64,000 bases of DNA from Capitulum mitella (taxonomy: Eukaryota > Arthropoda > Thecostraca > Pollicipedomorpha > Pollicipedidae): the NCBI GenBank assembly GCA_030062745.1, contig CP099845.1:15664903-15728902 (forward strand). Reading direction: 5' to 3'. This document shows, piece by piece, positions 24,001-64,000 of this stretch. The notes below the pieces were generated by a model, which saw only the letters and a list, made by a program, of their open reading frames with translations, had not been told where the DNA came from and ran no database searches. Both the position numbers and the translations under genes were made by a program. Numbering within the stretch: the stretch's first letter is position 1; each line of letters starts with the position of its first letter.

Positions 24001-24490
24001 GGCTGCCGACAGCCCCCCCCCATTCGCGCATGATCGTAACGGACCGACGGTCGTGCGCGAGTTAATCATGCTTTCAGTGAAGATAGCCAACAGCGGTACA
24101 TTTCGTCACTTCCAGCGTTCACTAACCTCCGCAAGGGTAGAGGAACTGGAGCGAGGTCATGGACTTTGAATAAGATTTTTGATCCAAGGTAAATTCTCTA
24201 CCAACTGTTTACACGAAAGTTACTTCGGTATAATGAACAAATCTACATGATTTATTTGTGGTAAAACGTAAAACGTAAAACTTAAGGCGTATCAGTGGTG
24301 TGCAAACGTGTGTGTATTAGGTTCTCTGAATACATCTCCGATACAAATGGACATGCAAAGCAAATTTAGATCAGGTCACAAGCCAGTTGACCTTGGTCTT
24401 TGATGACCTTGACCTTTACTGACCCTGGCTTTGACCTTGGCCTATCCCTGAGTTAACCCAGACTGATGTAGGCTGATAAATGTTCAAACG

Positions 24491-24542
<52 letters not shown>

Positions 24543-30500: not shown

Positions 30501-33500
30501 TCTTGTATTGAGTGCAGCTTACCGTAGGTGCTGCTGTTTCAGAACACTGTCTATTTCTACACGACGTTCAACTCGTACAGCGGACACTTTTCGCTGTCGG
30601 TCAGCCACAGACTGCTGAGGACGGCCGCTGTACAGCACATTCAGGCGTTACGTGTGACGGCCGGCAGCCACTGGCTGCTGGTGTCTGTCCGTGAGGCCCA
30701 CGCCGTCCAGTGGATGGTGTTCCCGGTGCTCGTACGACAGGCGAACGTCGGTAGGTCATGCGGCAGGTGTCCTTTGGTTTTGATAAGGATAATGGTTAAA
30801 TCTTTTCCCTGATAATATGATCGTTTCTGTGTATGTCCGAAACGAACAGCATGTGTGGTAAGTGATAAAACCAGTAAGTGATAAAACCAAAGATCATTAC
30901 TACGTCACATGAAAATTGCAGCAGACCGCATGAATATAGCTAACGAGGAAAAGTAAGTACTAGCGTAATTAACATGTCTGTCTTTCGACACTCCCATATC
31001 GCATTCCTGTTGGGATTCGAGTGGTATGAGCGATATTCGGCGAAATGAACTGAACTCCGGATCATGAAAATATTTGCTGCAAAAGACTGTAGGCAGCAGG
31101 CAAATTGTTAAGCGGTCCTCGCACATGGAAAGATAATCTCCGTTTGAAGAAGCTCGTCATATTCGTGTTGCATTGAAAAGCGGCATTTTCTGTGCGATGA
31201 AGACTGAAACGAATTAGCCAGATGTCGCCAGCTTCTCTCAACTGCTGCCATGAGGGGTGTCACCAACTGCTCTCAGCTGTTGCCGTGTGAGGACGTCACC
31301 AGCTTCTCTCAGCTGTTGCGTGTGGGAGTGTCACCAGGTTGTGTTGTATTATACAAGCAGGAACATCCACACTTAATAGTGGCTATTAATTTGCCCATCG
31401 CGATGGCCGAAAATGGCACGAATAATGCGAAAAGGGGAAAGGGTACAGGGATGAAGATGTAACGATGTAGGACAGGCTAAGGTTCATGGAGCTCGGGAGA
31501 TGGGAGTGGATAATGCTTTTGGGGTTCGTTCCGCCGGAATTGGCGCCGCGCTCAAGGTGTATTTAATTTGGGGTAAGGAAAAATACAAGGGCAAATGAAG
31601 AGTAGAAATGGCAAAACACACATAAAAATAGACACTCGAACTGTGGATGATGTGAGCACTGTACGCCCTGTGGTGGTCGTTTTGTTTTCGTGAGCACCGT
31701 CTCACAAGTTTTCGAATGCTCGCTTTTATGTTATCCCTAGTGTGTCTGAAAGCCGCCTGGAGCTTGCTCTATATGCCATGTGCAGCAGCTTCTCTCAGCT
31801 GTTGCCGTATGGGGGTGAAGCCAACTGCTTTCTGCTGTGGTCACGCGGTGGCCCCGCTGCAGTGCTGACGCCGCCAGAGAGAGACTTGCTGCTGGACTGT
31901 CTGAGCCAACTGGACGAGGCGTTGGAGGCTCTGGACCGTGAGCTGGACGAGCTACTGCTGCTTTCCGTGCTGGTGTTTGTCAGCAACCGGGGTGACATCA
32001 TCAGGGGCGACGTCCACATCGCCTCCGACCTAGTCATCCAGGGCCCGGCCGATATTGACAAGGTACTTGCTCCCCTCCCAGCCGGACTGTGCTCGTGGTG
32101 TGGCCAATATTGACCAGGTGCGTACCTCCCTCCCAGCCGGACTGTGGTCGGGCCGGGTCCGCACGCTTCGCTGGTGGTGGTGACTTCCTTTGTGTCGGTC
32201 CAGCGACCTCTGCTCGATCTGGACTCGGCTGGGATCTCTGCGCCGACGCCCCTCGTGCGGAGGGGGGGGGGACGTTCTGCCCGAGCTCAGTCGTTTGACA
32301 GCTGGACGTGTCGTGTTACAGCTACATATTAGCTCCAGTGTGCCGATGGAGCTGGGCTCTGTGGACTTGGGAGACATTCGGCATCAGATGGCGCAATGCA
32401 ACGCCTCCATCGAGGCCCTCGGCAGGGGGCTGGAGACAGCCCTGACAGCCTCGTCACCGCAGACCATCACAGGTGCGGCACAGCGACCGGCCACCGGGGC
32501 CTGGTGCCGCTGCCGCCGCTGCCTGCTACTGCCGTCACTGGCAGTAGCGTGCGCTGCTGGCAACAGAACTGTCTGTTCAGGACATCGGGAGAAGCCACAA
32601 GGGGTACATGAACGATGAGGCGTACCGAGATCACTGCAGTGGAATGGCTGAAGAAGCTGCGGTGGTTAGTACACTGAGATGACTGCTGATTAGTTTGACG
32701 AGGTCAGATTAATTCGGATTTTGTTTCAGGACACTACACATTTAACAACCTTGTAGTGGAGGGGACGTTGTCAGTCAGCCAGGTGACGCGTTTGGAGACG
32801 CTGGATCAATTTCCATGGCACGGTCTGCTGAACTCTGCTTTGACATACAGCGGTAAGCTCATTGTGCTTCGTTCCTTTTGTTGTAATGCTGCAGGCGCTT
32901 TCCGTCTCAGTGGAAATGCTGCAAATTTGGAGCCAGGAATTGAAACCGTGAACATTGCTATGGGACTACTGTTGGTGTCAAATCATACTCTACCTAATCC
33001 ATGTGGATGATTTGAACAGTTATGGTTTGATGGTGATTAAATTCTGCGTGCCGCTGTTTCAGCTCAGGTACGGATTTCTTGAAAGGGTTTGGTCAAAATT
33101 GGACATTAAATAAGGATACTTCTCATAGGGGTCTAATGTTAAAAAGCTTGGGGTGTCTTACGCCCCGGACAGAGATTGCTTAAGTTTGACGTTGTTGATT
33201 CGGCTCTAGGAACCTCCCACTACCGGGGTCGGGCTGGTTGCACCACGAGGAATCTGGCGCGTTATAACATTACGGCCTATAATATTACGGCAAAGGACCA
33301 GCGCAACGTGAAGCGAGACATCATTGCTGTTGAGAGAGCAATGATTGTGGTTGTGGTGATTTTGGAAGGGAACACAGGCTTCCCTATGCGGATGTTTCCC
33401 TAACCGTAACGCTGCAGGTCAGTTTCAACGGTTCTTTTTGTCTTGGGCCAACAATACAAAACAAAGCATAGGTCGTGCTCAGGCTCGGATTCTGGTATTT

Positions 33501-36500: not shown

Positions 36501-39500
36501 GACCCTTCCCATGCATTAAAATCAGGTCATTGGCACAAACATTTACGAAGCAAACATTTAACACAACATTGCAGTGCCCATTTTCCTACAAATGATACGT
36601 ATTGTTCGACTTGGTTAAAAACACCTGACCTGACCTTGACAGAATGTTTGCAGGTCATGACGTATTGCATCAGAAACACTAAATTTTACTTAGGTGTGAG
36701 AATGTTAAAAACTCAGCTACAACAAAAATAAGCCCACCACCCCGTTGTACAAAAGCTATTTAAGAAAAACCGCAGGGAGCCCTAAAACGACCATCCTCCC
36801 TTGGGCGAGGGTTAAATCAGCTGAAAGCTGTTTTGTCTGTTGGGTCTCTGGCGGCCGGCTGGGTCCGCCCGTCACCGCCCGTCTGGGCGGCACAACAGCC
36901 AGCCCGAGCTCGACTACTTCGCGAGTCAGACAGAACTTGGTATTGTCTTCTTCCGCACTCATTTATCGACATGTTTTAAAAAACTGGATCATTGGTCCTC
37001 CCGTGGAACCAAATGATGAAGGTACTACAAGCTACGAATGGTGATTTCTAATGTGAATGAAGTGTTACTGAAAGTCTCTGAAGTGAAGAAAAAGGGACGG
37101 CTGAAAGCTATGCCATGATAAACCCATGTCCATTTGCGTTGTGAAATAACTGTGTTCGGTTCGGTTCGATTATGTTCGGTTATGTTCGGCTACGTTCGCC
37201 TGTGTTATGTTGAGTGCGCTAACTGCGGAGTGATGCCTGATGAGGCCGATTGGGTCGGGTGGGCGCTGGCACTGTGGAGGGATGTCTGGTTGGGTGTGCT
37301 CGCTGCGGAGGGATGCCTGGTTGGGCGCCCTCCTGTGGAAGAATGCCTATTTGGGTGTGTTTGCTATGGAGGAATTCCTGGTTGGGTGTGTTCGCTGCGG
37401 AAGAATGCCTGGTTGGGTGTGCTCGCTGTGGAGGGATGCCTGGTTGGGTGTGCTCGCTGCGAGAGAATGTGTGGTTGGGTGTGCTCGCTGTGCAGGGATG
37501 CCTGGTTGGGTGTGCTCGCTGTTGTGGAATGCCTGACGTGGGCTGGGTGGTCCGGCCTCCGCAGGGGACCAGCTTCTGCAGTATCCTCTGAACATCAGCT
37601 CCGGCTCGGCGGTCGGCGTTTCGCTGGCCGCTACAGCCACGCTCAACGGCGTCACCGTCCCAGGTTGGTAACCGTTGCTGGCCACCGTACCATGTGGCTG
37701 GTCCTGGTACTTCGGTTTCAGACTCTGCCCTTTAGAGCAAGGATCGATTACTCCTTGCTGCCGATCTGCTGAGCTGCCGATGTCTGGAATGGTTTTCTGA
37801 GCTGTCGGCAATGAGTCAGGGGACCACAACCTGCCTGACTTTCCGTGACTGCCGTCAGACCTGCAGTACACCAGTGGCTCCCAGACTGTCACCGGACGTC
37901 ATCGCTACCAGCAAGTGGGCATCAGTGGCGACCTGTGGCTGTCGTCCCTGCTGAACGGAGTGGACCTCAGCACGGCCCTGTTGCTGGGCGAGACGCTCAC
38001 AGTGCCGACAGCCAGCCTCCACTCGGCCAGCGTCGACACCCTGCTGGTCACCAACATCAACGGGGTGTGCAGACGTTACAAACGCTGTCGCCCGTTCTGC
38101 GGGCTTCTGCATCGACGCACCGGCCTGACCAGCTTGCGTGACAAAATGCACCAGTGCTACCCCAATGATAATCTCATATACTTAACCACCTGGCAGTTAC
38201 TAGGACATCTCGAGTCGGCGCTGGCATACGGAGGGGGCGGGGGCGGGGGTGGGAGGGGGGGGATTAGACGACCGCACTCAGCACCTTCGCAGCCAATAGA
38301 TTGGCTGATTCAAAAGGCAATTGATTTTCCACAATATGTCACCCCAGGCATGTAGTCAGGGAGGCGCATGGGGTCCATCCCTCCTCTGAGCTAAGCGATC
38401 TACACTAGATGTGGTACGAAGATTTTGTGTTACGAAGGTCGAACAAGGTCGCGCCAGCTGACGCCGCGGGCATAGTGGTCGGTCGCGGCAGTCTGACCGG
38501 CGTCCCCGCGGAGAGCACGTCAGTGTGTGCTTCTGCGACCCAGACAGAATAGAACAGATATCGTTTTCGCAGGGATGCGGAGTGATGGTCATGTATATGA
38601 TGCAAAAGCAAGCATTCTGTTTTCCTGTACGTTACGTATGAGGTCATTTACATAAAATTGCTGCTTGTGACAAAATATGGTATTTGTCCGATTAAAATCC
38701 TGGCTACGTGCCTGTGCCACCCCGGATGTCATATTTTTAGACCTCAGCATTATGTAGTAGATCATGTGCCATATCAAAGGTCACTGTTAAACAGATAGGG
38801 CGTGCCGTTTTTTTGCATACAAAGTGGAGAACACGCATATACAAAGGCTGGGATATTTAAAACGTGCGTAGGATTCGTTTACATACACCTGAAGAAAAAC
38901 GTTCTACAGGTCAACGAGTGGCATGTGGTACTAAGAGGTCAACTACTCGCTGCTTTAAGTATGCCTTAAATGACGCTTTAGGGTCCAGAAGTGCCATAAG
39001 GCTTCGTAAGATGCCTCTGAATGCTCGTGTTGACAGCAGACATTTTCAGAGAGCTGTCACAATTGGTTATACGACGTAAATTGACTCAGATTTGAAAAGA
39101 CGCAGTCACACAAGTTTGACCTTTGATGACAGTGTTGTGTGAGGTGGTGAACGGTCCGTAATGACATGGCATAACACACAGCGCACACAAACGGCCATCT
39201 TTCACGATCAATGGGGCAATGAAGATGAGGTGAAGTCTGGAACAGGACAGTAAAACATCGTCTTCCTGACGTCATGTTGACTGACCTTTGAGGACATTGG
39301 CAGAGTCACTAAAATATGCAGAATTGGTGTACCGAGGGGTACTGGGAATGTAGCGACGCTGCACTGTTGTCCTGTGGATCAACGCGACAGAGGGGAAAGT
39401 CAGCAAAAAAGACTGACGCTAAGCCAGCAAACTGTAGGCGAATCGTATGAGCTGATTCGTTTGTGGCGTTATACTCACCGGTTTTTGGTGTTCGGCCATC

Positions 39501-41996: not shown

Positions 41997-42037
<41 letters not shown>

Positions 42038-54000: not shown

Positions 54001-57000
54001 ATTTTCCAATGGGAGTGCACCGTGCAGTGGTACACAGGTGTGAAAGGACGCATACCTATGCCTGCTTTACACAGATGATGCTTGTTTTACGTATTTATAT
54101 TGTCATTCCCTTAGGTTCTCGGTCCATGTAGCAGCAGTTAACGCGTGCACTCCAAATGCCGTGATTATTCTGACTGACGCTCCTCACCCGCACACGCCCT
54201 CTGCTCGCTTTGCGTACTAGAGTATTCTGACCGCTGATACTCTTGTATTCTGATACAGTACTTTCCGCACGACCTGGCAGGGGGCCGGGGGCAGCGTAGT
54301 GAAGTGGTTACCGTGCTTGTCTTGTGACCGAAAGGTCCCCGGTTCGAATCCAGGTAATCGCGACAGGTCGCTGTCTCTCGCGACGAACTGGCGTGAGAGG
54401 TTGCGACGCGAAGTGACCCTGGTAGTCGAGATGGTCTTGAAATAATCCAATAATCAACCACCCTGGCACGCTAGTCCAGGGGAAAGAGAGGGGAGGGGAA
54501 AGGAGAGAAGTAGAAGAAGTTTGCGAGCCGTCCGCCAGCTGTTTGCGACATTTGGTGCTAGCGTACCGAAGGGTGAGTACGAAAAAAGTCTCCCGGCTCA
54601 TTTCTTGTGGCGGGTAAGGGAATGCTGTAGCTACTAACTAATGTTACGTGCTTGTGCGGGGCAGCGCTATGGGTGCAGTCTCCATGCGTCGAAAATAATC
54701 TGGTCGTAATTTAACAGTTGCCTCAATAGCGCGGTTTTTCCGATAAACAAATGCATGTTATGGACATTCAGAGATAGTACGTAACGATCAAAACCCATAT
54801 TTTCACCTCATGTTTCTTGAAGTCACATTGGATCTTGTGTGAACCGTTTTAGCTCGTGAAAGCTACTGCTCGCCGAATGCTGATCTCGCTAGTAGAAAAA
54901 TATTTTTTGTGTGTGTGTGGCATCTCATTTCCAATTAAAGAATAAGAGATGACAGTAATAATATCCAGGATGAACTCTGCACGCTGACAGTGGCGTAGCC
55001 AAAGGGTAAAGGGGCCACGCCCTCCCCCTGAGGCCAAGTGAGTCTCCTGGCGGCCTAGTGGGCCCCCTGGGGCCGAAGGCCTAGTGAGCCCCAAGGCATT
55101 GGGCCCTTCGCCCCCATTGCTTTTGATAGTGAGGCGCCAGCAGGGCGCCTTACACTATCTTTGTGTATTATACTGTCCGAAACAGATGATTAAAACATCA
55201 CGAACCTAAATAACGTATTCTGACTATACAACAGAACTACGTTTGCTATGAAGAGAGGCCCCGGTCTGAATGGGCGTGTAGGGGTCTATGCTAGGTTGTT
55301 GTTGGGGGGGGGGGGGGGGGTCACTGCTTGTCCGGAGAGGGCCCCATGGCGTCCTATAAAAGGGGCTCTATCGGCCTCTGAAGGGCCTCCTTTCGGTCTG
55401 TATGAACGGCCCTGTTGGCCAGTGGACAGCTTTCCCGTCAGCTTTCAAAGGGGCCCTGCCTGCCTGTAAAGGCGCTGCTGTCGATCTGACGGGTGCGCCT
55501 TACATTGGTCGCTTTTTGGGGTCGTCACCAACCGTCGTTTTGCGCCATGATATGATTTGAATCACATGGGCCAGAATTGGTTGTAAAGGTCCCCAGTGGT
55601 TACAAGGGCCCTTGATCTGATTCGGCCCCCCTGAGCAAAATCCTGGCTACACCCTTGCTCTTTGACAACCACCGGTACAGGACAACCGCCTCGTTCCGCA
55701 GCAACGTTTTCATGGCCGTGGCAATTCACCTGGGAAAGCGGAGACCGAAACTGGCAACAGGGCTTCCATTCTCCCTTCACCAATGACCCTATTCTCGGCA
55801 GGGGGAATGAATTCGCCCCCTCGGGTTTTTGCTTGCCAGTTCCAGTGTTTTTGACACAGCTCCACGAAACGTAATGACTTTGCTTAGCTATTCTTTCTAC
55901 GTGCTGTGACAAAATTCTGTAACTCTATTTTGCTTAGGGGCGGAGGAAAGCAACGTTTTTGGGAGGCACCTCAGACTGTTTTGGCGTTATTGGGGGTAAA
56001 AGGAAAATGGCTGCCAGAAATGGCGTTTTTAAGAAAAAAAACATAACACTTTACATGATTGTACAGACAAATAGTTGGGCAAGCACCTGAAGTCACTCCG
56101 CGACGTCAGGTCAAGATCAAATATCAAAATTTGGTTTCATAGTAATAATTTTGGCGCAGATTTTCCAAGTGGCGACATCAAAATGTATATATCATGGAAG
56201 GGTACCCTCTACTTCTATACCGAGTTTCAGCTTGATGTCAGATTAGGTCACGGAGCTATGATCTAAAATATCCGTGCACATATCCTGTATCAAAATAGTC
56301 GTAAAATGTAGTTTTAGAAATAGAGTAAATGGAAATGATTGGAAACGTTTTCAAACAATATAAATATACTCAGGACAACCCCAAGTGAATCTAAGGACAT
56401 TGGAAGTCATAAGGTCAAAGGTCATAAGTTGACCTGAATAGCATGTGACCGTACAGTTTTCCTTTTCGTGTCCCTGACGCCCCCTATGCTAACATTATAC
56501 AAACACTCTAATACGATTTGCACTTCTTTAGCATAACATGGCTAGCAGAAGCTGAGGTGTTTATAGCGTTGTTGTTAATTTAGTTTTTGAAAAGCTACTT
56601 CTATTTTTGAAGTTCTGTGAACGCCTATGGATTTTCTCAAAATTTCAAATGCCTGCACCAATAGTAAAAGTCCTAATCATAATCTCACGATTCCCGCCAG
56701 ATTCATCAAAGTCGGTCCATAAACAACAGATTTATAACAAGTCCGAAAATATCCCACATTTCGACTTTTTTGCTCCCTGTATCCACCCCTTTCAAAGTTC
56801 TGGAAACTTCTTTCTCTAAAAATACGGTTTACGACATGGCGAGTCGATTGCCGTTTGTTGCGATGAAATCGGATGTGTAGTTGTCGAGATGTCGGGGGGG
56901 GGGGTGAATCCCCCTGCTGGGAATCGGCTATACCGTCTACCCCTCCGGGATTAGGATTAACTTTATTCGATTGATTGGTTCGCTGCTATTTTTTGCGGGG

Positions 57001-60000: not shown

Positions 60001-63000
60001 CAGCACCATCGGATTCCATTTGTACCTATCTTTCTCCTGGACTGGTGTGTTAAAGGGTGCGCATTGGGCATATCAGTATATTCTTCAGGCACCACTCGTA
60101 GAAATGGGTGTGAGATAAGGGATCAGAGTCCGAGCAACAAGCACTGCGTAGTGGGAGCTCCAGTACCAAAGCATCCTATCAAACTATCCGGATCAAACTG
60201 ATCAGGCACAGTATCGAATAGCACCACCCTTTTTACCAGCCATGTGCCGTTCATAATGTAATATATTTCCCTAGTTTTGACAACGCTCTCCAGACTGCTT
60301 GACCGTGAAGGACATGAAAATTCCACTTCATTTTTTGACGCACCAGACCACCTACCCTAAACGTCAGTTTTGCAACCCAAACTTTCCATAGGTATCGTGG
60401 CTTGACATATGTGCACGACCCTGAAGGAGAATGCAGTCAGTCGAATTAGGAGGTGATGAGTTTTTCAACTTTCTCATCGTTTCTTTCTGAAGCCTTTCTG
60501 GAACTAATAATTAGGAGTATTTAGCAATAGTTCAAAAAAGAATATGCCTAAAGTTCAGAAGATTTTGAACGACGCGACTGGAGTCATTTTTGGCCGTCGA
60601 CAATTCGATCACGTTTCTGACCAGCGCGAGAAATTTGGCTGGCTCCCCTCCCAACAGTCTGCTGACTTGGCCACACTGAGCCTGGTACACAAGGTGCTCT
60701 CGCGTGGCGAACCGGAGTCCCTTGCTGATGTCCTGTGCTCGAACAGAACTGTAAGAGAGCAGACCACCAAGCAGGACAACTCCCTGCGTGTTTTCTCAAG
60801 AGCGCCCACGCTGTATAAACAGCTCCCCAATATGCTCACAGCGCCCCGATGTCTGTCTGTCTGTCTGTCCTGTCTCCTCATCTCTGGATTTGCGGCGTGA
60901 CATGGGCTTTTCTGCGGAAGACCCGCTTTGATCCCGGGCCGGCCGCCTCAGGTGGTAATGCGCAGCCCGTAACCGTCCCTATCAAAATAACGTATTTGGG
61001 TGTCACCAGTGACGTCACGGTCCTCGACCAATGGTTGACCGGCATGGGTCGGCCGTCAGCTGGGTAACCGGTTATGCCGGCTGTTTGCTTACGCCGAGGT
61101 TTGACTGGGACATTGGTCGGACATTATCTTATTGTATGTTGCATTTGATAATATCATTAGATAGTTTTATATTTTCGTGGATCCTGTTAGGTTGGCTTTG
61201 GCATGGGGTTAGAAATTGATACGGCTTTGTGTGCTAGGAGCCAGCATTTTTCTTAATGATACTTGAAAGTGTAGAGATTACAAACCTTTCGACCATTTGA
61301 ACTGTCCGCGACACGGACACCAAAGTAGTACGTGATCACGTCGAAGGGGTGATCTCCAGAAAGCGTGATGTTCCTCAAACATGCGTTCCAAAAACATTTC
61401 CTGGAACCGCCTCTGGAGTAGTTATTTTTTTTAGTTTGTTTTCGCAGCATGCGAACAACGTATTTAGAGAGTCACCAAGTTTCGCGGAACAGCTTTCAAA
61501 ACTCGGAATGGGAGCAAAAAAAACCGGAGGGGGTGAAGAGGCCGCGCCCACCCCCATCAGAACGGAATAGGGTTTCCTTCTCGATTTGGAATAAGAATGT
61601 GCACACTGCATACCACGTCAAAACATCTTTACACAATCGCCACGTTAAGCGTGGAAAAGGTTCGGGTGAATACCGCCGTGCTGGAAAGATAAAGGAATAT
61701 CTGCGCAAAAACGTCACGCTCGTTGCTACATAGCATGCCCTAACTTCATATCGGGCCATCGAAACCACTGGAGTTCTAGGACATGGTATACTCCCGTCTC
61801 TGGAAGACTGAAGTTTGGCATTAACCCTGTGGCGTCGAAAATAACGCAATTACTTGAAAACGGCCTGCGCGGCCTGTCCCCAAAAAGTAAGTCATGTCTT
61901 ATCGCATATCATTGATTCTTTATCCCCTATCCCTAAAAACGGGCCGTTCTGCCTCCATTGCCTCATACCAAATACTTTGACCCGAGCTGTTCGCAGTGAC
62001 GCATCAAAATAGTCGCATTGCAATGGTCATATATTTGATTCGGAAGTGATTGCCAATTAATAATGCGTGCCGGGACCGGATGCAGTACTGTGATCTCTGA
62101 TAGATAGTCGTTAATCGTTTATTTTTGTGCGGCGTATAATATCAGGCCGAAGATGTCCCTGCCCTGTGCCATTCGTCTGCTTGCATACCTTGTATGGCGT
62201 CCGTGTTTTGTTATCACCGTGCCGTTTGTAGCCTTGTTTCATAGTGGGCAGAGCACTGCCCCGTGAATGGCTGAGTCGTGTCCGACGCACGACTGAGTCG
62301 TTTTCCTTGGAGCACGATTTCCACGCCATGGCTGGTAGGCTGTGATTGGGTATCGCTCCGACTCTGTGTCCAGACGTGATGAACGTGAGCGCAGTCAACG
62401 GAGTGCCTGCTGACCAGCTGGTGTTTATCGACCGCGATCTGCATTTCTACCAGCGCGTCCACATCTTTGCCGACGTCACCACCAGCGCGCTGGGGATCAC
62501 CAGTGGCTCTCTTGGCAACTGCAACCTCACTCAGGTGGGGCCCACGGGTGGCGGCGCGTATTCGATTCACCAGTTAGATGATCACAAGACCGTGTTACGC
62601 AAACTCGTCCACAAATGTAGCCCTATCCAGACCCGTGGTCGGGGTTTTATTACAGCATTTGAAATGGAATCATTCGCGCTAGATTTCAGATCTTCGTTCT
62701 TCTTTGCAACCGTCAGGTGTGGAACACAGGCCTCAGAAGGACTGCCACCACCCAGACACTGACTCACGGCATTACTGTCGGGTCCCTCACCGTAAACGGT
62801 GACGTCACACTGAGTCAGAGTGTCATCAGAGACGAGCTGCAGGAACTGGTGGACCGCATCGTGACTGATTCTGGAGACCACGTGATCACCGGTGAGAGCT
62901 GGTGAGATTGCGTCCATACGGGATACGACATGATCACGGGTGCGAGCTCAGTGGATTTCGTCCACACAGGTTAGTGTCATTATTAGTGATAGCTGGGGAT

Positions 63001-64000
63001 GTTTTGTCCACACGGTTTACCATGTGATTACGCGTGAGAGCTCGTGAGATTGGAATCACGCGGGCGTTTGGTGTTTTGGATAGATGCTTGTGTTTATGTA
63101 TGGTGTCTAGTTTCCTGGCGTTTCAGAACAAAAACAGAGGGTGTTTAAATTGCCCCGCTGGGCGAGGATTATGACCGCTAGGATCTTAACTGAAGCGCGT
63201 TATGTTGCAGCGGACTCGTTATGTCCGTGTTCCTAACGAGAGCCAAAGTAGTGACTTTGCTAGGTCCTACTGTGCCGTGGAATTCCCTTAGTAGGTGCGT
63301 TTATATGGGCATTTGGAAAGCTGCCAGATTCCCGGCCAAGTTGGCCGGATTGACCAGCTTTGAAATAAATGCTGGTGGACTCAAGTCGGGCAAATCAATG
63401 GGTTTTGCGGTGAAGTTGTGGCCAGTGTGCCGTGACTTACCGTGTTATTTTCCGGGCAGGTGAGGTCGTCTTCCAACAGCCGCTGTTTGTAACGGACGCC
63501 AAGGTATCGCTCTACAACGGTGTTAGTGTCGCTGCCCTGTTCGAAGACGCCCTGACGTACGACGGTGTCGCGCCGGTAAGTGCAGCAGTCCGGCTCAGCA
63601 CTTCAGCTTTCTCATGCGGCTGTGGACTTTGCAGCGTCAGATGACAGCCGTTGGGGACCGCTGTCATTGAGGCGTAGAGGGGAGCCTTGCACCACTGCGT
63701 GTCCCTGCGCGACTGCGAGTCCGTGCGCCATTGCGTGTGCCTGCGAGACTGCGAGTCCGTGCGCCATTGCGTGTGCCTGCACGGTTGCGTGTCCCAACAC
63801 AGATTCATTGGCCGCCAGCGCCCTTCAGTCTTCCACGTGATGCTTAGACCCCTGGTACCGTTCGGATCCACCCGCCCCCAGGTGACGCTGGGACCCGAGC
63901 TAACGCTACGTGGCGGTGCGACGCTCGGTGACGTCACGGTGACGTCAGACGTGGCGGCTGGCCTGGTAAACGGGGTGGACGTGAGTGGATGGTACGCCGA
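14955..64000 (+). CDS. multi-exon gene: secreted EPTP-propeller protein with novel NG/DQ repeats (3' end outside window)
   Basis: Gene model joining 28 exons listed separately. The start is the ATG at 14,955 because it opens a clear signal peptide and the exon ends in a good donor. Order in the protein: signal peptide (residues 1-22), charged helix (about 40-73), seven-segment EPTP/EAR-like propeller (about 74-454), acidic leucine-rich helix (about 455-500), then repeated beta modules to the window end, more than 950 residues. The modules share a hydrophobic strand pair, an 'xNGxxLS' turn and often 'GDQvItG'. EPTP repeats are known from secreted or surface proteins (LGI, TSPEAR, ADGRV1); the C-terminal repeats are not familiar to me. 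Extracellular location follows from the signal peptide; the function is unknown. Exons are GC-rich, introns AT-richer and transposon-laden. Confidence 0.85.
15337..15437 (+). CDS. exon 2: charged helical segment
   Basis: The acceptor is TTTCAG; the first codon is completed as AGG. It reads RQDIDNYLFDMEQQFKIDMN then KEFIKEFTKRKRDA, an amphipathic, highly charged stretch likely helical or coiled-coil. Donor GTGAGT, one base carried over. The alternative acceptor four bases downstream gives an immediate stop, which fixes the start. Confidence 0.85.
15732..15852 (+). CDS. exon 3: first EPTP-like strand set
   Basis: Acceptor TTTACAG, donor GTGAGT. It reads GILQTEIAGLGDPTISPGME then VSASDFFTFEGQTYAVVSLRT. 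'DFFTFEGQTYAVVS' fits the aromatic-Gly-x-x-Tyr-hydrophobic pattern of an EPTP/EAR blade. Two bases are carried to exon 4. Confidence 0.85.
16049..16084. repeat. 16-bp stem-loop in intron 3
   Basis: GTGACGCATATGGCGG at 16,049-16,064 pairs with CCGCCACATGCGTCAC at 16,069-16,084 with a single A/G difference across a 4-base loop ACAG. It lies about 45 bases before a tRNA-like head, suggesting that both belong to one short retroelement. Confidence 0.75.
16124..16190 (+). repeat. tRNA-like head (SINE-type) in intron 3
   Basis: A pol III A-box-like TAGGTCAGCGG (16,132-16,142) is followed 28 bases later by B-box-like GGTTCGAATCT (16,171-16,181), with a CTGATTCCTAATCG segment that could form an anticodon loop reading CCT. 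The acceptor and T-stem pairings are poor, so a functional tRNA-Arg gene is unlikely; a tRNA-derived SINE remnant fits better. Confidence 0.5.
16482..17322 (+). mobile_element. TTAA-flanked element, family A, copy in intron 3
   Basis: Begins TTAACCGTATTTTCGGCAG (16,482) and ends CCGTCCGGGAGAAGGG with a decayed TTAA (TGAA, 17,319-17,322). The interior matches other family A copies, including the 'CAAACATCGGAACAGGTTTTG' homologue of the copy 1 block and the terminal CTTGCCGGGAATCGACTATA. At 841 bp it is shorter than the about 1.15-kb copies, so internal deletions are likely. Confidence 0.75.
17454..17610 (+). CDS. exon 4: EPTP-like blade
   Basis: Preferred acceptor is the pyrimidine-rich CCCCTTGTTGTAG; an in-frame alternative at 17,409 would add 15 codons. 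It reads TLNESYIGLVTGNASEGTLK then IEHRASFSMQSFIDSQYSAT and FQPSLQHRVVEMK. Donor GTATCG, phase 0. The boundary lies just downstream of the family A insertion. Confidence 0.75.
18422..18669 (+). CDS. exon 5: EPTP-like blade
   Basis: Acceptor GGTCTCAG, phase 0. It begins AYVYDGQVFIMSCLENSGTL, then 'LLFMVSDPAASWTPKYQD' and 'SDFAFFEESGQLRVFVAVSH', two strand sets with the Tyr/Phe-Gly-hydrophobic spacing of EPTP repeats. It must use the donor TA|GTGAGT, because reading one base further gives an in-frame TAG. Two bases are carried over. Confidence 0.88.
18959..19085 (+). CDS. exon 6: EPTP-like blade
   Basis: Acceptor GCCGGCAG completes a TAT codon; the nearby GTCAG at 18,975 would create a stop and is excluded. 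It reads YVYRLSGGIKWLQMHTVATP then 'QGATSVTTFTDQRWTYIVIG'. 'VYRLSGGIKW...TFTDQRWTYIVI' is a good EPTP/EAR match. Donor GTGAGA, phase 0. Confidence 0.88.
19130..19395. repeat. TCTG/TGTC-rich simple repeat in intron 6
   Basis: A long pyrimidine-rich tract of CTGTCTGTCTCTGTC-type words starts about 45 bases after the exon 6 donor. Overlapping Ser/Leu/Cys/Val-rich frames in it are a by-product of the repeat. Confidence 0.85.
19702..19867 (+). CDS. exon 7: EPTP-like blade
   Basis: Acceptor TTATTTGCAG, phase 0. It reads VQSLVYRHHWYTKELELFQY, then 'LQSQRAISVEAFFHDTQIYV' and 'LLVNAYGAPTIFWWT'. The order 'VYRHHW..F.Y...AISVEAFFHDTQIYVLLVN' is the clearest EPTP signature in the gene. Donor T|GTTAGT, one base carried over. 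Confidence 0.9.
20001..21209 (+). mobile_element. TTAA-flanked element, family C, copy in intron 7
   Basis: Starts TTAACCCTCGCTCGGCC and ends CCGCCGGGCAAAGG before TTAA (21,206-21,209): imperfect terminal inverted repeats next to the TTAA target. It aligns along its length with 35,664-36,815, sharing ACCATTGTGTTG, GGTCACCGCCAGGGAC and other blocks. Length is 1,209 bp. Half-sites for AGGTCA occur repeatedly. No transposase frame is present, so this is a piggyBac-like MITE. Confidence 0.85.
21487..21602 (+). CDS. exon 8: EPTP-like blade
   Basis: Of three AG sites only TCAATTACAG gives the right phase. It reads SDQLFKWQSLDVVSESDQIM then 'FGHVGILQSDESYIYIVSR'. 'LFKWQSLD' and 'DESYIYIVS' fit EPTP strands. 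It ends AGG with donor GTGAGA, phase 0. It is followed by the 8.9-kb intron 8. Confidence 0.85.
22140..22275. repeat. CACCCA-type simple repeat in intron 8
   Basis: ACACCCACATTCACACC, GCACCCACACCCACACCACC and similar words recur over about 130 bp. Confidence 0.75.
22855..24065 (+). mobile_element. TTAA-flanked element, family D, complete copy in intron 8
   Basis: Left end TCAACCCGCCCCCGACTGGG at 22,855 (one change from TTAA); right end GACGGTCGTGCGCGAGTTAA with TTAA at 24,062-24,065. Near each end lies a G/C palindrome (GACAGCCCCCCC and GGGGGGGCTGCCGACAGCCC). The left 540 bp are the inverted partner of 1-554. The interior includes dense half-sites such as GGTCAGGTCAGGTACCTGAC. Length is 1,211 bp, like families A and C. 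No transposase is encoded. Confidence 0.8.
24360..24545. repeat. TGACCTT-rich stretch followed by (TA)n microsatellite
   Basis: From 24,372 to 24,450 GGTCA/TGACC words recur about every 10-14 bases. A TA run fills about 24,495-24,545. Confidence 0.8.
24880..25510. repeat. C-tract-rich duplicated segment in intron 8
   Basis: A unit with a run of C followed by AAACGGGACCGTTGA and later CTGATAACCATCATC occurs at about 25,185-25,240 and again at about 25,385-25,475, roughly 200 bp apart. Long homopolymer C and A runs lie between them. It is probably a decayed mobile element; no ends are clear. Confidence 0.55.
25686..27420 (+). mobile_element. pogo-like (Tc1/mariner superfamily) deletion derivative
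   Basis: Both ends carry the terminal inverted repeat GGGGAGACCGGGGTCAAATG, identical for 21 bases, and TA flanks each side (25,684-25,685 and 27,421-27,422), the Tc1/mariner target duplication. TGTAACA words recur just inside. The only coding remnant is the transposase C-terminus at 26,610-26,954, listed separately; the DNA-binding and DDE catalytic parts are deleted. Length is 1,735 bp. The well-preserved ends suggest recent activity. Confidence 0.88.
26610..26954 (+). pseudogene. C-terminal fragment of a pogo/jerky-type transposase
   Basis: The 115-codon frame contains 'LTPEAIRPLPMAGPRKNSRA' then GRKRKAAILTDTLEKRAIEL, followed by a Lys/Arg-rich stretch and an acidic tail 'RESSSDDEDDVFCF'. 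'PE.IRP.P.AGPRK..R.RK....ILTDT.EK' is the usual tail after the DDE domain of pogo-type transposases. The conserved catalytic domain is absent, so it is a remnant; the ATG start is not meaningful. Confidence 0.75.
27671..27695. repeat. perfect 10-bp stem-loop at the edge of a large inverted repeat
   Basis: ACCAGTAATG, loop ACTCC, CATTACTGGT. It sits just outside the left arm of the inverted repeat at 27,700-28,915. Confidence 0.85.
27700..28915. repeat. large imperfect inverted repeat (foldback-like), arms about 345 bp
   Basis: The left arm (about 27,700-28,062) and right arm (about 28,575-28,915) are reverse complements with scattered differences. Matching blocks include CAATTTTGGCCTGGTCAAAA against TTTTGAACAAGCCAAAATTG, the CATGCGCCGTTTGGTATAG block against CTATATCAAAAGGCGCATC, and the outer AGTGGCGAATTACGTA against TACATAATTCGCGACT. 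About 510 bp separate the arms. Short frames inside are not conserved between arms and are not called. Confidence 0.8.
29495..29765. repeat. tandem duplication of about 160 bp in intron 8
   Basis: The block from AAGAATAATTTGATCGGCCT to AAAAACGGAAC recurs about 155 bp downstream as AAGAATAAGTTGAGGCCTGA to AAAAATGGAAC. Both include AGGTCGGGAC and GTTATTTC.AAACAACTT. Confidence 0.8.
30543..30750 (+). CDS. exon 9: last EPTP-like blade
   Basis: Acceptor GCTGTTTCAG, phase 0 after exon 8. It reads NTVYFYTTFNSYSGHFSLSV, then 'SHRLLRTAAVQHIQALRVTA' and 'GSHWLLVSVREAHAVQWMVF'. 'VQHIQALRVTAGSHWLLVSV' matches the EPTP strand pattern. Donor G|GTAGGT, one base carried over. Confidence 0.88.
31222..31335. 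repeat. 33-bp minisatellite, 3 copies, in intron 9
   Basis: Units contain CAGCTTCTCTCAGCTGTTGC or close variants, with a GTCACCA junction. A fourth unit occurs separately at about 31,786-31,820, immediately upstream of exon 10. Confidence 0.75.
31863..32062 (+). CDS. exon 10: acidic leucine-rich helix and start of the repeat region
   Basis: Among five upstream AG sites only CCCGCTGCAG gives the required phase. It begins VLTPPERDLLLDCLSQLDEA, then 'LEALDRELDELLLLSVLVFV' (helical, coiled-coil-like), and ends 'NRGDIIRGDVHIASDLVIQG' plus 'PADIDK', the first beta module. Donor GTACTT, phase 0. The donor region is duplicated just downstream. Confidence 0.8.
32043..32150. repeat. tandem duplication of the exon 10 donor region
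   Basis: The segment GGCCGATATTGACAAGGTAC, continuing through CTCCCAGCCGGACTGTG, is repeated about 54 bp downstream as GGCCAATATTGACCAGGTGC with the same CTCCCAGCCGGACTGTG. The second copy keeps a GT at the equivalent splice position. Confidence 0.85.
32322..32472 (+). CDS. exon 11: linker and helix of the first repeat module
   Basis: Acceptor GTGTTACAG, phase 0. It reads LHISSSVPMELGSVDLGDIR, then 'HQMAQCNASIEALGRGLETA' and 'LTASSPQTIT'. The tail 'SPQTIT|G' is the DQ-type motif closing a module. Donor G|GTGCGG, one base carried over. Confidence 0.8.
32730..32852 (+). CDS. exon 12: beta repeat module (symmetric 1-1 exon)
   Basis: Acceptor TTGTTTCAG. It reads GHYTFNNLVVEGTLSVSQVT then 'RLETLDQFPWHGLLNSALTY'. 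'FNNLVVEGTLSVS.V' is the strand pair of the module, although the NG turn has drifted here. Both flanking introns are phase 1. Donor G|GTAAGC. Confidence 0.85.
32853..34850. other. first part of intron 12, no further exon recognised
   Basis: Frames at 33,438-33,827 and 33,904-34,149 are open but have no motif, no fitting splice sites and no similarity to the module, so they are not called. Nothing else is recognised. Confidence 0.4.
34852..35405 (-). mobile_element. 3' fragment of a CR1/Jockey-like LINE in intron 12
   Basis: On the minus strand the sequence reads 'INFAARLVTGARRGDHITPS' then 'MEALGWSRVGDLVRTRDLKV', typical of the RT thumb region. After a frameshift it continues 'RLFSYPAAVAWNRLPPAASN' and 'SFLEHLKHLT', the usual C-terminus. 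It ends in a CATACATACATA-type tail at about 34,856-34,877. Only the 3' 0.55 kb is present, as in 5'-truncated LINE insertions. It is a different subfamily from the 5031-8240 copy. Confidence 0.85.
35664..36815 (+). mobile_element. TTAA-flanked element, family C, copy in intron 12
   Basis: Starts TTAACCCTCGCCGGGC and ends CTTGGGCGAGGG before TTAA (36,812-36,815), giving inverted termini TTAACCCTCGCC on both sides. It aligns throughout with 20,001-21,209 in the same orientation. Length is 1,152 bp. The better match between its two ends suggests this copy is closer to the ancestral element. Confidence 0.88.
37274..37550. repeat. 31-bp minisatellite, about 9 copies, at the 3' end of intron 12
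   Basis: Units resemble GGATGCCTGGTTGGGTGTGC TCGCTGYGGAG, with GATGCC/AATGCC and TGTGCTCGCT variants. The array ends only about 15 bases before the exon 13 acceptor. Its period is not a multiple of three, so the three long plus-strand frames through it are not genes. Confidence 0.92.
37565..37663 (+). CDS. exon 13: beta repeat module (symmetric 1-1 exon)
   Basis: Acceptor GGCCTCCGCAG. It reads GDQLLQYPLNISSGSAVGVS then 'LAATATLNGVTVP'. It opens with the GDQ motif and ends with an LNG turn. Donor G|GTTGGT. Its acceptor is unusually close to a minisatellite. Confidence 0.8.
37859..38064 (+). CDS. exon 14: beta repeat modules
   Basis: Acceptor TGCCGTCAG. It reads DLQYTSGSQTVTGRHRYQQV, then 'GISGDLWLSSLLNGVDLSTA' and 'LLLGETLTVPTASLHSASVD' and 'TLLVTNING'. 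It contains SQTVTG, LLNGVDLS and a second NING at the end, so it spans one full module and starts another. Donor GTGTGC, phase 0. Confidence 0.82.
38231..38262 (+). other. G-quadruplex-type G-run cluster in intron 14
   Basis: Five consecutive G-runs of 3-8 bases are separated by single bases (GGGGGCGGGGGCGGGGGTGG continuing to a run of eight G). It lies about 170 bases after the exon 14 donor on the coding strand. Confidence 0.85.
38585..38714 (-). mobile_element. truncated hAT-like MITE in intron 14
   Basis: On the minus strand it begins CAGGCACGTAGCCAGGATTT, the same terminus as the element at 10,448. It also shares the interior block ACAGGAAAACAGAATGCTTG. The distal end is missing. Confidence 0.65.
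39842..40019 (+). CDS. exon 15: beta repeat module
   Basis: Acceptor TTGGGACAG, phase 0. It reads AGLTAWQRHAVHLDRPQTFA, then 'GHFSIESATFVSLSIVELNG' and 'YHLSTVLQSLWKNDSDVIA'. 'ELNGYHLS' followed by 'NDSDVIA|G' is a complete module ending. Donor G|GTGAGT, one base carried over. Confidence 0.88.
40020..41604. other. intron 15, no element recognised
   Basis: AT-rich sequence with short direct repeats (AGGTGTTTAAAATATGAA at about 40,545-40,580; TTTAGTCTA words at 40,210-40,265). No exon or transposon is recognised. Confidence 0.5.
41605..41835 (+). CDS. exon 16: two beta repeat modules (symmetric 1-1 exon)
   Basis: Acceptor TTTTTGTAG. It reads GTTDFRGSVVVNQLTFDKIN, then 'GVSLWTDVLTTDTDQTVTSQ' and 'LQVDVLDVSLDLSNDQVNGL' and 'DLSVDVVRTSGVPNSVA'. 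KINGVSLW, DTDQTVT and QVNGLDLS are canonical module motifs. Donor G|GTGAGC. The GC content is well above that of the flanking introns. Confidence 0.9.
42000..42033. repeat. (TA)n microsatellite
   Basis: Pure TA run, directly followed by TAGACAAAACAAATGTTTCG, an order also seen at 3' ends of some retroelements. Confidence 0.9.
42034..42720 (-). mobile_element. possible decayed Penelope-like element fragment in intron 16
   Basis: On the minus strand 'VIYGCGVRRIRHVGETDGCL' loosely resembles the Cys-Gly...Tyr-x-Gly-Glu-Thr core of the GIY-YIG endonuclease of Penelope-like elements. The block ends near the TA microsatellite. The similarity is weak and the frame has no RT part, so this is only a suggestion. 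Confidence 0.25.
44077..44336 (+). CDS. exon 17: two beta repeat modules
   Basis: Acceptor CGCTTGCAG. It reads GTVVFANDLIVTGDVVVADG, then 'VTVNEVDMSDVPALLSSLGS', 'QHLSQDVVLNGLWTIQGSVH' and 'LTSVNGYRLDLLHQLFWTRD' and 'GDQVISW'. SVNGYRLD plus DGDQVIS show the complete module. Donor GTAACC, phase 0, an unusual donor shared with exon 24 (both end TCAGCTGG before GTAACC). Confidence 0.9.
44337..45759. other. intron 17, no exon or element recognised
   Basis: Includes an AGGCAGGCAGGC run (about 44,468-44,484) and a CGCATGCACGCATGCACA run near 45,000. Minus-strand frames at 44,426-44,960 have no convincing match. Confidence 0.45.
45760..45900 (+). CDS. exon 18: beta repeat module (symmetric 0-0 exon)
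   Basis: Acceptor CTTCTCGCAG. It reads DIPTPVTILNGFTVKGDMEV, then 'STINDIDTDKFINVSTGGTV' and 'QNDVSFE'. 'ILNGFTVKGDMEVSTINDID' is a compact strand-turn-strand unit. Donor GTAAGC, phase 0. GTGCAGTGCAGTGCA follows the donor. Confidence 0.88.
46123..46245 (+). CDS. exon 19: beta repeat module (symmetric 0-0 exon)
   Basis: Acceptor GTTCTTGCAG. It reads GNITASDVFLSPGGRLNGFD then 'LSDFALTVVTRDGDQFILGT' and K. RLNGFDLS and RDGDQFILG are near-consensus. Donor GTAAGA, phase 0. Confidence 0.9.
46460..46565 (+). CDS. exon 20: beta repeat module
   Basis: Acceptor GATTTTACAG, phase 0. It reads TFSGGVNASSVVVEVINDLR then 'VPDDLLLVNGDQTQT'. It has 'VINDLR' in the turn position and 'NGDQTQT|G' at the end. 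Donor G|GTACGT, one base carried over. Confidence 0.88.
46680..46856 (+). CDS. exon 21: beta repeat module (symmetric 1-1 exon)
   Basis: Acceptor ACTGCTGCAG. It reads GSLTFLEDLEVLKDVAFYGD, then 'VTVTNAINGYRAADILDILT' and 'SMWVNSTFGQVLIINGNAR'. 'FYGDVTVTNAINGYRAADIL' is a full strand-turn-helix unit. Donor T|GTGAGT, one base carried over. Confidence 0.9.
47081..47268 (+). CDS. exon 22: beta repeat module
   Basis: Acceptor CTGCCGCCAG. It reads FSDVHIMETLNTTGLTELLK, then 'GALQLDKHLYISGNFTVKGN' and 'VLFNSGLSLNTVNRLSWSDY' and 'LSS'. 'LYISGNFTVKGNVLF' and 'TVNRLSWSD' are the strand pair and turn. Donor TCG|GTGAGG, phase 0. A tandem array of this exon end follows. Confidence 0.88.
47253..47500. repeat. 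46-bp tandem array starting inside the end of exon 22
   Basis: The unit starts with the last coding bases TGGTCCGACTACCTCTCTTC and the donor, then GGACTATGGAGATTGTAG. It is repeated about five times downstream (TGGTCTGGCTACCTCTCTTC, TGGTCTGGCCATCTTTCTTC, TATTCTGACCATTTCTCTTC, CGGTCTGACTACCTGTGTTC). Later copies have lost a canonical GTGAG donor, except for weak GT sites. Confidence 0.85.
47535..47750. repeat. degenerate GCGTCACACTCTGCACGG-type minisatellite
   Basis: Units of about 20 bp (TGCACGGGCGTCAC, TGCACAGGTGTTACA, TGCATCTGCGTCACACTC) recur about ten times in intron 22. Confidence 0.7.
48066..49210 (-). mobile_element. TTAA-flanked element, family A, inverted copy in intron 22
   Basis: At the left CTAACTATTCCCGGAGGGGT and at the right ACCTGCCGGATATAGGGTTAA (TTAA at 49,207-49,210) form inverted termini. 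On the minus strand it matches the other family A copies, including the GGAATCGGCCATGCCGTCTA end and the TTCGTGGAGCTG / AACGTTTTTG blocks. Length is 1,145 bp. TGACCT half-sites are frequent (48,540-48,600; 48,850-48,900). Confidence 0.85.
49733..50730 (+). mobile_element. TTAA-flanked element related to family C, in intron 22
   Basis: Starts TTAACCCGCCACTGGCAG and ends CCCCGTCAGTGGAAGATGG before TTAA (50,727-50,730). The last 45 bp align with the family C terminus (GGGGGCGTTAAACGCTCCGC vs GGGGGTCCTCAAACGCTCCC). Most of the interior has diverged. A hAT-like MITE is inserted in it; without that, its length is about 825 bp. Confidence 0.65.
49976..50148 (+). mobile_element. 173-bp hAT-like MITE nested in the TTAA element
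   Basis: The left end CAGGGGCGCTGCCAGGATTT and the reverse complement of the right end (CACCAGCGCTGTCAGAGG) share CANNNGCGCTG. The 8-bp direct repeat ATGACTGT flanks it exactly (49,968-49,975 and 50,149-50,156). An 8-bp duplication is diagnostic for hAT-type insertion. There is no coding capacity. Confidence 0.88.
51429..51627 (+). CDS. exon 23: beta repeat module
   Basis: Acceptor GGCGTCCTTCAG, phase 0. It reads LTLSDVGGTVSGTTTLASSL, then 'TVTSPAHFLVTSLNGLMLSD' and 'LYNQFLTLHTDQVIGQRVTV' and 'NGFVRS'. SLNGLMLSDL and HTDQVIG are canonical. Donor G|GTAAGC, one base carried over. It is an isolated exon between two transposon-filled introns. Confidence 0.9.
51628..54286. other. first part of intron 23, no exon recognised
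   Basis: Just after the donor, GCCGGCTCTACCAGCTGCGT and related GGCCGGCTG/GGCCGGAG words recur to about 51,730, possibly a short decayed minisatellite. The open frames at 51,739-52,359 and 53,111-53,551 show no motif or fitting splice sites. Nothing else is recognised. Confidence 0.4.
54287..54475 (+). mobile_element. tRNA-derived SINE
   Basis: A pol III A box TAGTGAAGTGG (54,297-54,307) and a perfect B box GGTTCGAATCC (54,341-54,351) are spaced as in tRNA genes, followed by a non-tRNA body. The CTTGTCTTGTGACC segment could derive from an anticodon arm with GTC. The acceptor stem does not close, so this is not a functional tRNA. The 3' limit is uncertain. Confidence 0.65.
54980..55660. repeat. 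G/C-rich element remnants with GGCGTAGCCA / CCTGGCTACRC ends
   Basis: GTGGCGTAGCCAAAGGG at about 54,991 and AAAATCCTGGCTACACCC at about 55,637 look like hAT-type termini facing each other. Between them lie repeated GGGGCC / AGGCCTAGTG words and a run of 17 G (55,304-55,320). Target duplications are not identified. Confidence 0.4.
55783..56960 (+). mobile_element. TTAA-flanked element, family A, copy in intron 23
   Basis: Starts near ACCCTATTCTCGGCAGGGGG (TTAA decayed to ATGA) and ends CCCCTCCGGGATTAGGA then TTAA (56,957-56,960). The interior has the CTTTTCGTGTCCCTGACGCC and AACATTATACAAACACTCTA blocks seen in copy 1. Length is 1,178 bp. Confidence 0.82.
56961..59095. other. AT-rich part of intron 23, no exon recognised
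   Basis: Contains a CA/TA microsatellite near 57,724-57,758 and many TA-rich words. Short frames only; nothing supports a gene. Confidence 0.5.
59100..59450. repeat. GC-rich tandem units each with an inverted CCAAT box
   Basis: Five ATTGG cores occur (near 59,140, 59,240, 59,308, 59,384 and 59,429), most in the setting GCGCGCTGATTGGCCGTCGG, followed by GGGCA.TTTT. CpG is dense here, in contrast to the surrounding AT-rich intron. Overlapping Ala/Arg-rich frames on both strands are compositional. It could be a CpG-island-like regulatory block or a GC-rich satellite. Confidence 0.55.
59690..59960. repeat. dispersed GCGCGCCGAAG.TCGCG motif, three copies, with a perfect hairpin
   Basis: TCGCGCGCCGAAGGCTCGCG (59,701), TCCGCGCCGAAGTCGCGCGG (about 59,861) and TTGCGCGCCGAGGGTGCGGG (about 59,942) are each close to ATTTTTAGG/TTATTTTTGT. 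Between the first two lies a perfect hairpin: AGGCTTTACCAAAAT (59,729-59,743), loop TTT, and its exact complement (59,747-59,761). Confidence 0.7.
60544..60845 (+). mobile_element. LINE reverse transcriptase C-terminal fragment in intron 23
   Basis: The frame reads 'VQKILNDATGVIFGRRQFDH', 'EKFGWLPSQQSADLATLSLV', 'HKVLSRGEPESLADVLCSNR' and 'SLRVFSRAPTLYKQLP', the conserved order at the end of CR1/Jockey-type ORF2. The frame is open but lacks palm and fingers, so it is a 5'-truncated copy. It ends about 50 bases before a TGTCTGTCTGTC run and 100 bases before exon 24. Confidence 0.85.
60952..61063 (+). CDS. exon 24: beta repeat module (donor uncertain)
   Basis: Acceptor CGGCCGCCTCAG, phase 1 as required by exon 23. 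It reads GGNAQPVTVPIKITYLGVTS then 'DVTVLDQWLTGMGRPSAG'. Its end TCAGCTGG|GTAACC is identical to the exon 17 end, but the frame there is shifted by one base, and the resulting phase does not match exon 25. A weak alternative donor (ATGG|GTCGGC) would restore the phase. Either an indel, a missed exon or non-use of this exon is possible. Confidence 0.65.
61335..61573 (-). mobile_element. family A terminal fragment in intron 24
   Basis: On the minus strand it begins near ACCCTATTCCGTTCTGATGG and includes GAAACTTGGTGACTCTC and the CCAGGAAATGTTTTTGGAAC block, matching the left part of family A (compare 49,000-49,210). Confidence 0.6.
61574..62373. other. rest of intron 24, no exon recognised
   Basis: Searched for an exon that would repair the exon 24/25 phase mismatch; none with module motifs is visible. 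Confidence 0.45.
62374..62534 (+). CDS. exon 25: beta repeat module
   Basis: Acceptor TGTGTCCAG. It reads VMNVSAVNGVPADQLVFIDR, then 'DLHFYQRVHIFADVTTSALG' and 'ITSGSLGNCNLTQ'. AVNGVPADQL is the turn motif. It needs one base from the preceding exon. Donor GTGGGG, phase 0. Confidence 0.82.
62717..62891 (+). CDS. exon 26: beta repeat module
   Basis: Acceptor AACCGTCAG, phase 0. It reads VWNTGLRRTATTQTLTHGIT, then 'VGSLTVNGDVTLSQSVIRDE' and 'LQELVDRIVTDSGDHVIT'. 'GSLTVNGDVTLS' and 'SGDHVIT|G' are near-consensus. Donor G|GTGAGA, one base carried over. Decayed copies of this exon end follow. Confidence 0.9.
62870..63055. repeat. tandem decayed copies of the exon 26 end and donor
   Basis: The exon end ACCACGTGATCACCGGTGAG AGCTGGTGAGAT recurs as ACGACATGATCACGGGTGCG AGCTCAGTGGAT and as ACCATGTGATTACGCGTGAG AGCTCGTGAGAT, with TCCACACGG/TCCATACGG words between. 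Period is about 55-70 bp. Confidence 0.82.
63125..63172 (+). mobile_element. family C terminal fragment in intron 26
   Basis: ACAAAAACAGAGGGTGTTTA then AATTGCCCCGCTGGGCGAGG and ATTA align with the family C right end. Only about 48 bp remain. Confidence 0.4.
63460..63575 (+). CDS. exon 27: beta repeat module
   Basis: Acceptor TTTTCCGGGCAG, phase 1. It reads GEVVFQQPLFVTDAKVSLYN then 'GVSVAALFEDALTYDGVAP'. 'LYNGVSVAALFEDALTYDGV' is turn plus helix. Donor GTAAGT, phase 0. Confidence 0.9.
63697..63795. repeat. 36-bp minisatellite in intron 27
   Basis: Units of 36 bp (GCGTGTCCCTGCGCGACTGC GAGTCCGTGCGCCATT) recur about 2.7 times, each made of two related 18-bp halves. The frames through it are Ala/Cys/Thr-rich and are not continuous with the gene. 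Confidence 0.85.
63882..64000 (+). CDS. exon 28: beta repeat module, cut by the window edge
   Basis: Acceptor CCGCCCCCAG, phase 0. It reads VTLGPELTLRGGATLGDVTV then 'TSDVAAGLVNGVDVSGWYA'. LVNGVDVSGW is a canonical turn. The frame is open to the last base, so the gene continues to the right. Confidence 0.88.
   Translation, partial: MTLGPELTLRGGATLGDVTVTSDVAAGLVNGVDVSGWYA

Follow-up and report, generated by a model that had tools for sequence, protein, structure and literature searches.

The 64,000-nucleotide window of the Capitulum mitella genome analysed here on balance probably carries an intact gene of at least 27 exons, encoding a secreted, propeller-headed protein with a stiff, beta-rich rod of modules that is structural and adhesive outside the cell. 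By computation, the window holds an open frame, an EAR domain, and a repeat that finds no match in the libraries searched. The protein would begin with a signal peptide and continue with an EAR/EPTP beta-propeller, whose blades probably number seven. A short helical linker rich in leucine would lead into an array of modules, each about 42 residues long and at least 21 in number, that would run off the window; the repeat first noticed would form the C-terminal part of the gene. The propeller head may bind a partner, as is thought for the EPTP propellers of LGI proteins, while the module array could act as a stiff beta-rich rod, keeping the head some way off or packing into a matrix. Module fold, rod shape, and matrix role are putative and read from the sequence. 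An earlier note on this DNA had described a repeat, which it could not assign to a named domain family, in a large predicted secreted protein spread over several exons, and had inferred a long beta-rich rod or solenoid. This description stands as far as the large secreted-type repeat protein is concerned, whereas the rod or solenoid is a prediction from the hydrophobic pattern; the EAR/EPTP head, located upstream of the coordinates it covered, had been missed. Since the upstream EAR/EPTP repeats score above the gathering threshold, the protein represents a new architecture built on a known head.

The array consists of 21 contiguous head-to-tail modules, M01 to M21, which follow a degenerate 79-residue stretch termed M00. 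Module length ranges from 37 to 52 residues, with 19 of the 21 falling between 37 and 45 and M21 being cut by the window edge. A column profile of the 21 modules yields a consensus of 42 positions, about QTITGxVTFxGxLTVSGDVxVxTVNGVDLSDLLxxLLTxDGD. In the column table, Q, T, I/L/V, T, and G are followed by V-T-F, a G, L-T-V, then S, G, and D, V-x-V, and the series hydrophobic, N, G, hydrophobic, D, L; the module ends in L-L-x-x-L-L in helix-like spacing and a final D-G-D. The N at position 25 is present in 18 of 21 modules and the G at position 26 in 13. Hydrophobic residues occupy positions 3, 7, 9, 13, 15, 19, 21, and 24, and thereafter 27, 29, 32, 33, 36, and 37 in helix-like spacing, a pattern that predicted short beta strands and one amphipathic helix per module would fit. 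The earlier note had given the order as hydrophobic strands around a Gly, an NG turn, a short helix-like stretch, and DGDQxITG, and the column profile shows these elements in the same sequence. Its example motifs are all present in plus-strand frames within the range it had given: LLNGVDLS (about 37.95 kb), QVNGLDLS (about 41.77 kb), SVNGYRLD and DGDQVIS (about 44.26–44.33 kb), RLNGFDLS and DGDQFILG (about 46.17–46.24 kb), HTDQVIG (about 51.57 kb), and SGDHVIT (about 62.87 kb). The repeat it had counted as at least 15 segments is real, but the figure is an undercount of the 21 contiguous modules plus M00. Cysteines are few in the 980 residues of the array (three), and N-glycosylation motifs number 11.

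Eighteen predicted exons extend from 31863 to the window edge and, once joined as proposed in the earlier note, form a single open frame of 980 residues with an incomplete first codon and no stop. Each unit was scored by a leave-one-out profile against 500 shuffles of itself, with unit borders cut by eye and M00 tested yet never part of the training set; the fractions given below are the shuffles that reach the real score. Exon 10 (31863–32062, phase 1 to 0) encodes the leucine-rich helical linker (a coil by eye) and then the first half of M00, the second half of which lies in exon 11 (32322–32472, 0 to 1; M00 1/500), ending at the module border QTIT^G. M01 is found on exon 12 (32730–32852, 1 to 1; 3/500) and M02 on exon 13 (37565–37663, 1 to 1; 9/500). 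Exon 14 (37859–38064, 1 to 0; donor 1.1) contributes the end of M02, M03 (0/500), and the first part of M04 (7/500), and exon 15 (39842–40019, 0 to 1) the remainder of M04 together with M05 (1/500). M06 (0/500) and M07 (148/500) reside on exon 16 (41605–41835, 1 to 1), and M08 (0/500) and M09 (0/500) on exon 17 (44077–44324, 1 to 0), which has an alternative donor after 44336, also in phase 0. M10 (0/500) and the start of M11 are encoded by exon 18 (45760–45900, 0 to 0), the remainder of M11 (0/500) and the start of M12 by exon 19 (46123–46245, 0 to 0), the remainder of M12 (1/500) and the start of M13 by exon 20 (46460–46565, 0 to 1), and M13 (0/500) and the start of M14 by exon 21 (46680–46856, 1 to 1). 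Exon 22 (47081–47268, 1 to 0) completes M14 (40/500) and carries M15 (0/500), which ends on exon 23 (51429–51627, 0 to 1) ahead of M16 (0/500) and the first part of M17 (0/500). The remainder of M17 and the first part of M18 (415/500, without support on its own) fall on exon 24 (62374–62534, 1 to 0), and the remainder of M18, M19 (1/500), and the start of M20 on exon 25 (62717–62891, 0 to 1). Exon 26 (63460–63575, 1 to 0) holds M20 (0/500), and exon 27 (63882–64000), cut by the window edge, M21 (0/500).

For 17 of the 22 units, at most three shuffles match the real score. M07, M14, and M18 are not significant singly, and M02 and M04 are moderate. The two halves of the array also recognize each other: a profile of M01–M10 scores 8.9 bits on the second half versus 7.5 for the best of 1000 shuffles, and a profile of M11–M21 reaches 23.5 bits on the first half versus 12.2, the tested half being free of set borders in both comparisons. 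With these half-array profiles, neither the reversed halves nor the N-terminal part in either orientation scored above −0.1 bits, where they were reported at all. The initial profile, built from seven seed segments, recovers its seeds by construction and therefore proves nothing. The modules are thus a genuine repeat, with greater regularity than first described. No further module exons were found in the introns at E below 1 when the profile was run against stop-to-stop stretches of at least 20 residues; matches elsewhere at E 1.2 to 5.9 were taken as chance. Five of the 17 array introns share place and phase, being inserted in phase 1 directly ahead of the ITG glycine, a pattern that growth of the array through exon duplication would produce. 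The other 12 lie off the module border, so that a rule of one exon per module holds only partially.

The module matches no domain in Pfam, PHROGs, or solved-structure libraries convincingly. Eight of ten single-exon open reading frames have no Pfam family at E ≤1, the other two reaching best E-values of 0.057 and 0.35. Twenty modules scanned singly hit two Pfam families, one module each, with a best E of 0.012 and no score at the gathering level; both families, ThiS-like (E 0.012, 1/20 modules) and LED_rpt (E 0.13, 1/20 modules), were rejected as chance. The spliced array of 979 residues yields a best Pfam E of 0.047 with no match above the gathering score, and no Calx-beta match at E ≤10. The earlier note had left the repeat unassigned and had taken a strong match to a known domain family as refuting its reading; no such match was obtained in the libraries searched. 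Against PHROGs, the same 20 single modules hit seven families, one module each (best E 0.036), and the whole spliced array none at E ≤1. Among solved structures, the module profile gives a best E of 0.58 and one real exon open reading frame 1.3. A two-module exon, one per collection, retrieved no relative from IMG/VR, GTDB genomes, or phage records, an outcome that an animal gene would lead one to expect. Even without a Pfam entry, a repeat may be common in animal databases under the label of uncharacterised protein.

The boldest alternative, itself unlikely, is that the modules build a trimeric fibre resembling phage tail fibres, in which three chains, beginning at the leucine-rich helix, would twist together into a beta-structured shaft bearing three propeller heads. 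A predicted leucine-rich helix does lie directly ahead of the array, and the typed consensus resembles phage proteins: it matches Pfam BppL_N with E 4.6e-5 (23.3 bits, just below the cut-off of 25.8), a virion structural protein as the best of 20 PHROGs families at E ≤1 (E 0.002), and PDB 5e7f, ‘Major structural protein 1’ (E 0.078), a phage baseplate protein. However, this consensus is artificial. In Pfam controls consisting of one reversal and nine shuffles, none of the ten beat E 4.6e-5, but the nearest came to 6.7e-5 and 4.3e-4 (shuffles) and 1.3e-3 (the reversal), each with another family; with shuffles as near as 6.7e-5, the BppL_N match is close to chance and carries little weight. The real spliced array, in contrast, attains only E 0.35 with BppL_N and no PHROGs family at E ≤1, and a tblastn search with one two-module exon and the consensus retrieved nothing from 50,697 phage records. 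The consensus matches among solved structures (Tako8, a designed repeat protein, E 1.5e-6; a myxobacterial hemagglutinin, 0.033; 5e7f, 0.078) and PHROGs (best E 0.002) were uncontrolled and not counted. The typed consensus is thus alike to the beta repeats of phage tail fibres and baseplates in its GDxTIxGxxTFxG units and Gly-separated short strands, whereas the real array lacks a PHROGs match and the one exon a match in phage records. It is a doubtful, speculative proposal that the modules constitute a new animal repeat family, each 42-residue unit combining several short strands of beta structure, separated by Gly, with a turn at Asn-Gly and a helix, and forming a phage-fibre-like trimeric or a solenoid rod that bears EAR heads. 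To our knowledge, no extracellular fibre design of such rods with EAR propeller heads has been described in animals.

The preferred reading of a single propeller-headed gene requires the array exons to be joined to the region upstream. The window is eukaryotic in style, with short plus-strand open stretches flanked by splice-like borders and long, repeat-bearing introns between them. Joining nine upstream exons to the 18 array exons through splice sites and phase gives a 27-exon chain with a single frame of 1434 residues, free of stops and still open at the window edge. Exon 1 (14955–15073, ending in phase 2; donor 4.2) supplies a start codon and, judged by eye, a signal-peptide-like N terminus with a hydrophobic core, which suggests that the protein is secreted. 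Exon 2 (15337–15437, 2 to 1; donor 8.1) fits in phase and leads to exon 3 (15732–15852, 1 to 2), where the first EAR-like blade, E1, begins by eye. The following blades, likewise assigned by eye, are E1–E2 on exon 4 (17454–17610, 2 to 0) and E2–E3 on exon 5 (18422–18669, 0 to 2). Exon 6 (18959–19085, 2 to 0) encodes E3–E4, with the best Pfam EPTP stretch lying in E4, and exon 7 (19702–19867, 0 to 1) E4–E5; the open reading frame of the latter alone matches EPTP with E 0.0012 and 19.3 bits (cut-off 21). E5–E6 on exon 8 (21487–21602, 1 to 0) and E6–E7 on exon 9 (30543–30750, 0 to 1) are EAR-like by eye. Exon ends were placed by sequence and splice sites scored with simple matrices; several ends were picked among alternatives for phase fit, so that phase agreement is only partly independent. 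Scores below 1 occur at nine sites, namely the acceptors at 15337 (−0.8), 21487 (−0.4), 30543, 31863, 32322 (−0.2), 39842 (0.3), and 46460 (0.2) and the donors after 17610 (0.5) and 19867 (−1.3); the sites at 37859 and 38064 lie close to 1. The splicing of the 27 exons is predicted.

It is distinctly unlikely that two neighbouring genes, one for the EAR head and one for the modules, have been wrongly joined. Such an error would be suggested by an intron of 8.9 kb (21602–30543) and one of 1.1 kb (30750–31863) near the border and by the weak acceptors at 30543 (0.6) and 31863 (−0.4), but phases fit over both border introns, and the exon that fills the gap is the clear best of its region. Between 21602 and 31863, the chain required at least one exon leading from phase 0 to phase 1. 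In an exon scan of 21.6–31.9 kb, the stretch 30543–30750 ranks top with a combined codon and splice score of 44.9 and the required phases; it is followed by two overlapping variants and then by the next non-overlapping candidate at 4.0. Because the exon was found by codon and splice score—the codon-usage training having excluded it—and both required phases are present, it lends more independent support to the chain.

The head is probably an EAR/EPTP propeller of seven blades. The spliced N terminus matches Pfam EPTP (PF03736) with E 1.2e-7 and 32.1 bits (gathering cut-off 21) in two stretches, the best being residues 268–299 within blade E4 (residues 264–312); an earlier N-terminal draft gave 33.5 bits. 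Seven blade-like segments, E1–E7, were cut by eye, two stretches being recognized by Pfam. By sequence, the head appears LGI/TSPEAR-like, and solved-structure searches with the N-terminal draft or a six-segment EAR profile did not retrieve LGI. When the first 489 residues were scanned against Pfam, neither a leucine-rich repeat family before the propeller nor a thrombospondin-type laminin G domain appeared at E ≤1.

EAR propellers are known from a few proteins with links to epilepsy, deafness, and the development of teeth and hair. ADGRV1/VLGR1, a very large G-protein-coupled receptor, resembles the predicted protein in combining an EPTP domain with a long extracellular array of repeats, but its array consists of Calx-beta repeats, which the modules described here do not match; the C terminus of the present protein, where a seven-helix membrane domain would sit, lies outside the window. 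TSPEAR shares EAR repeats and differs in its thrombospondin-type laminin G domain, which was not found here. We know of no module array in TSPEAR, and the order of EAR head, helical linker, and module array fits no EAR protein known to us (LGI, TSPEAR, ADGRV1). Among the matches listed from the open-licence literature, none concerned an EAR protein that carries an array of this kind. The excerpts of one study (PMC3691968) describe ADGRV1/VLGR1 as a large protein with an EPTP domain and the seven EPTP repeats of LGI as most likely a seven-bladed propeller serving as a scaffold for protein binding. LGI1–4, which combine leucine-rich repeats with an EPTP propeller, share the secretion and the EPTP/EAR beta-propeller predicted for the present protein, whereas no leucine-rich repeat family was found ahead of the propeller here and, as far as those excerpts go, EPTP is the C-terminal part of LGI with no 42-residue array after it (PMC3691968). 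An EAR head on a long repeat tail absent from Pfam would widen the EAR family and provide a defined, testable repeat, through which relatives now filed as uncharacterised could be found and named. Should the repeat turn out to be a new rod fold, it would add a building plan for extracellular fibres. Membership in the Nasrat, Polehole, and Closca group of arthropod eggshell proteins, which are large and secreted and keep the vitelline membrane together, is highly improbable for this protein. The idea is a hunch from the type of protein: excerpts describe the group as secreted structural proteins that evolve fast, with about 22–25% fly–mosquito identity (PMC10576393), and report transcripts annotated to the group in shrimp ovary (PMC7040003, PMC6131155). 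The available parts of that literature name no EAR domain or such repeat in them, and the group is patchy outside flies: Nasrat and Polehole were not found in the pea aphid genome (PMC3639227), nor group members in a horseshoe crab embryo transcriptome (PMC4711587), according to excerpts of both reports.

Several other elements were observed in the window. No RNA families or tRNAs were detected within it at the settings used. Two exon borders are duplicated in tandem: a 55-base duplication (32047–32150) runs across the 3′ end of exon 10 and yields a second copy of the donor site there, unused in the frame, and a second, 46-base repeat (47248–47363) spans the 3′ end and donor of exon 22. The copied donor after 32117 was rejected, as the frame stops ahead of it. 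Tandem repeats are also present at 9851–10165 (nine copies of 35 bases, 97% matches) and at 14705–14899 (about six copies of 32 bases, 94% matches), the latter stopping some 55 bases short of the predicted start codon. Upstream of the gene, a minus-strand open frame at 5990–6520 is probably a LINE remnant, with a weak match to Pfam RVT_1 (E 5.2e-4, 20.2 bits, cut-off 29.6). An inverted pair of 240 bases (189–428 and 22976–23215, 92% complementary) adjoins a second pair (55–194 and 23211–23350, 94%), and the two together probably represent two copies of one dispersed element. Another dispersed element occurs on both strands at 3528–3706, 48162–48326, and 56642–56820, its copies being 76–79% alike.
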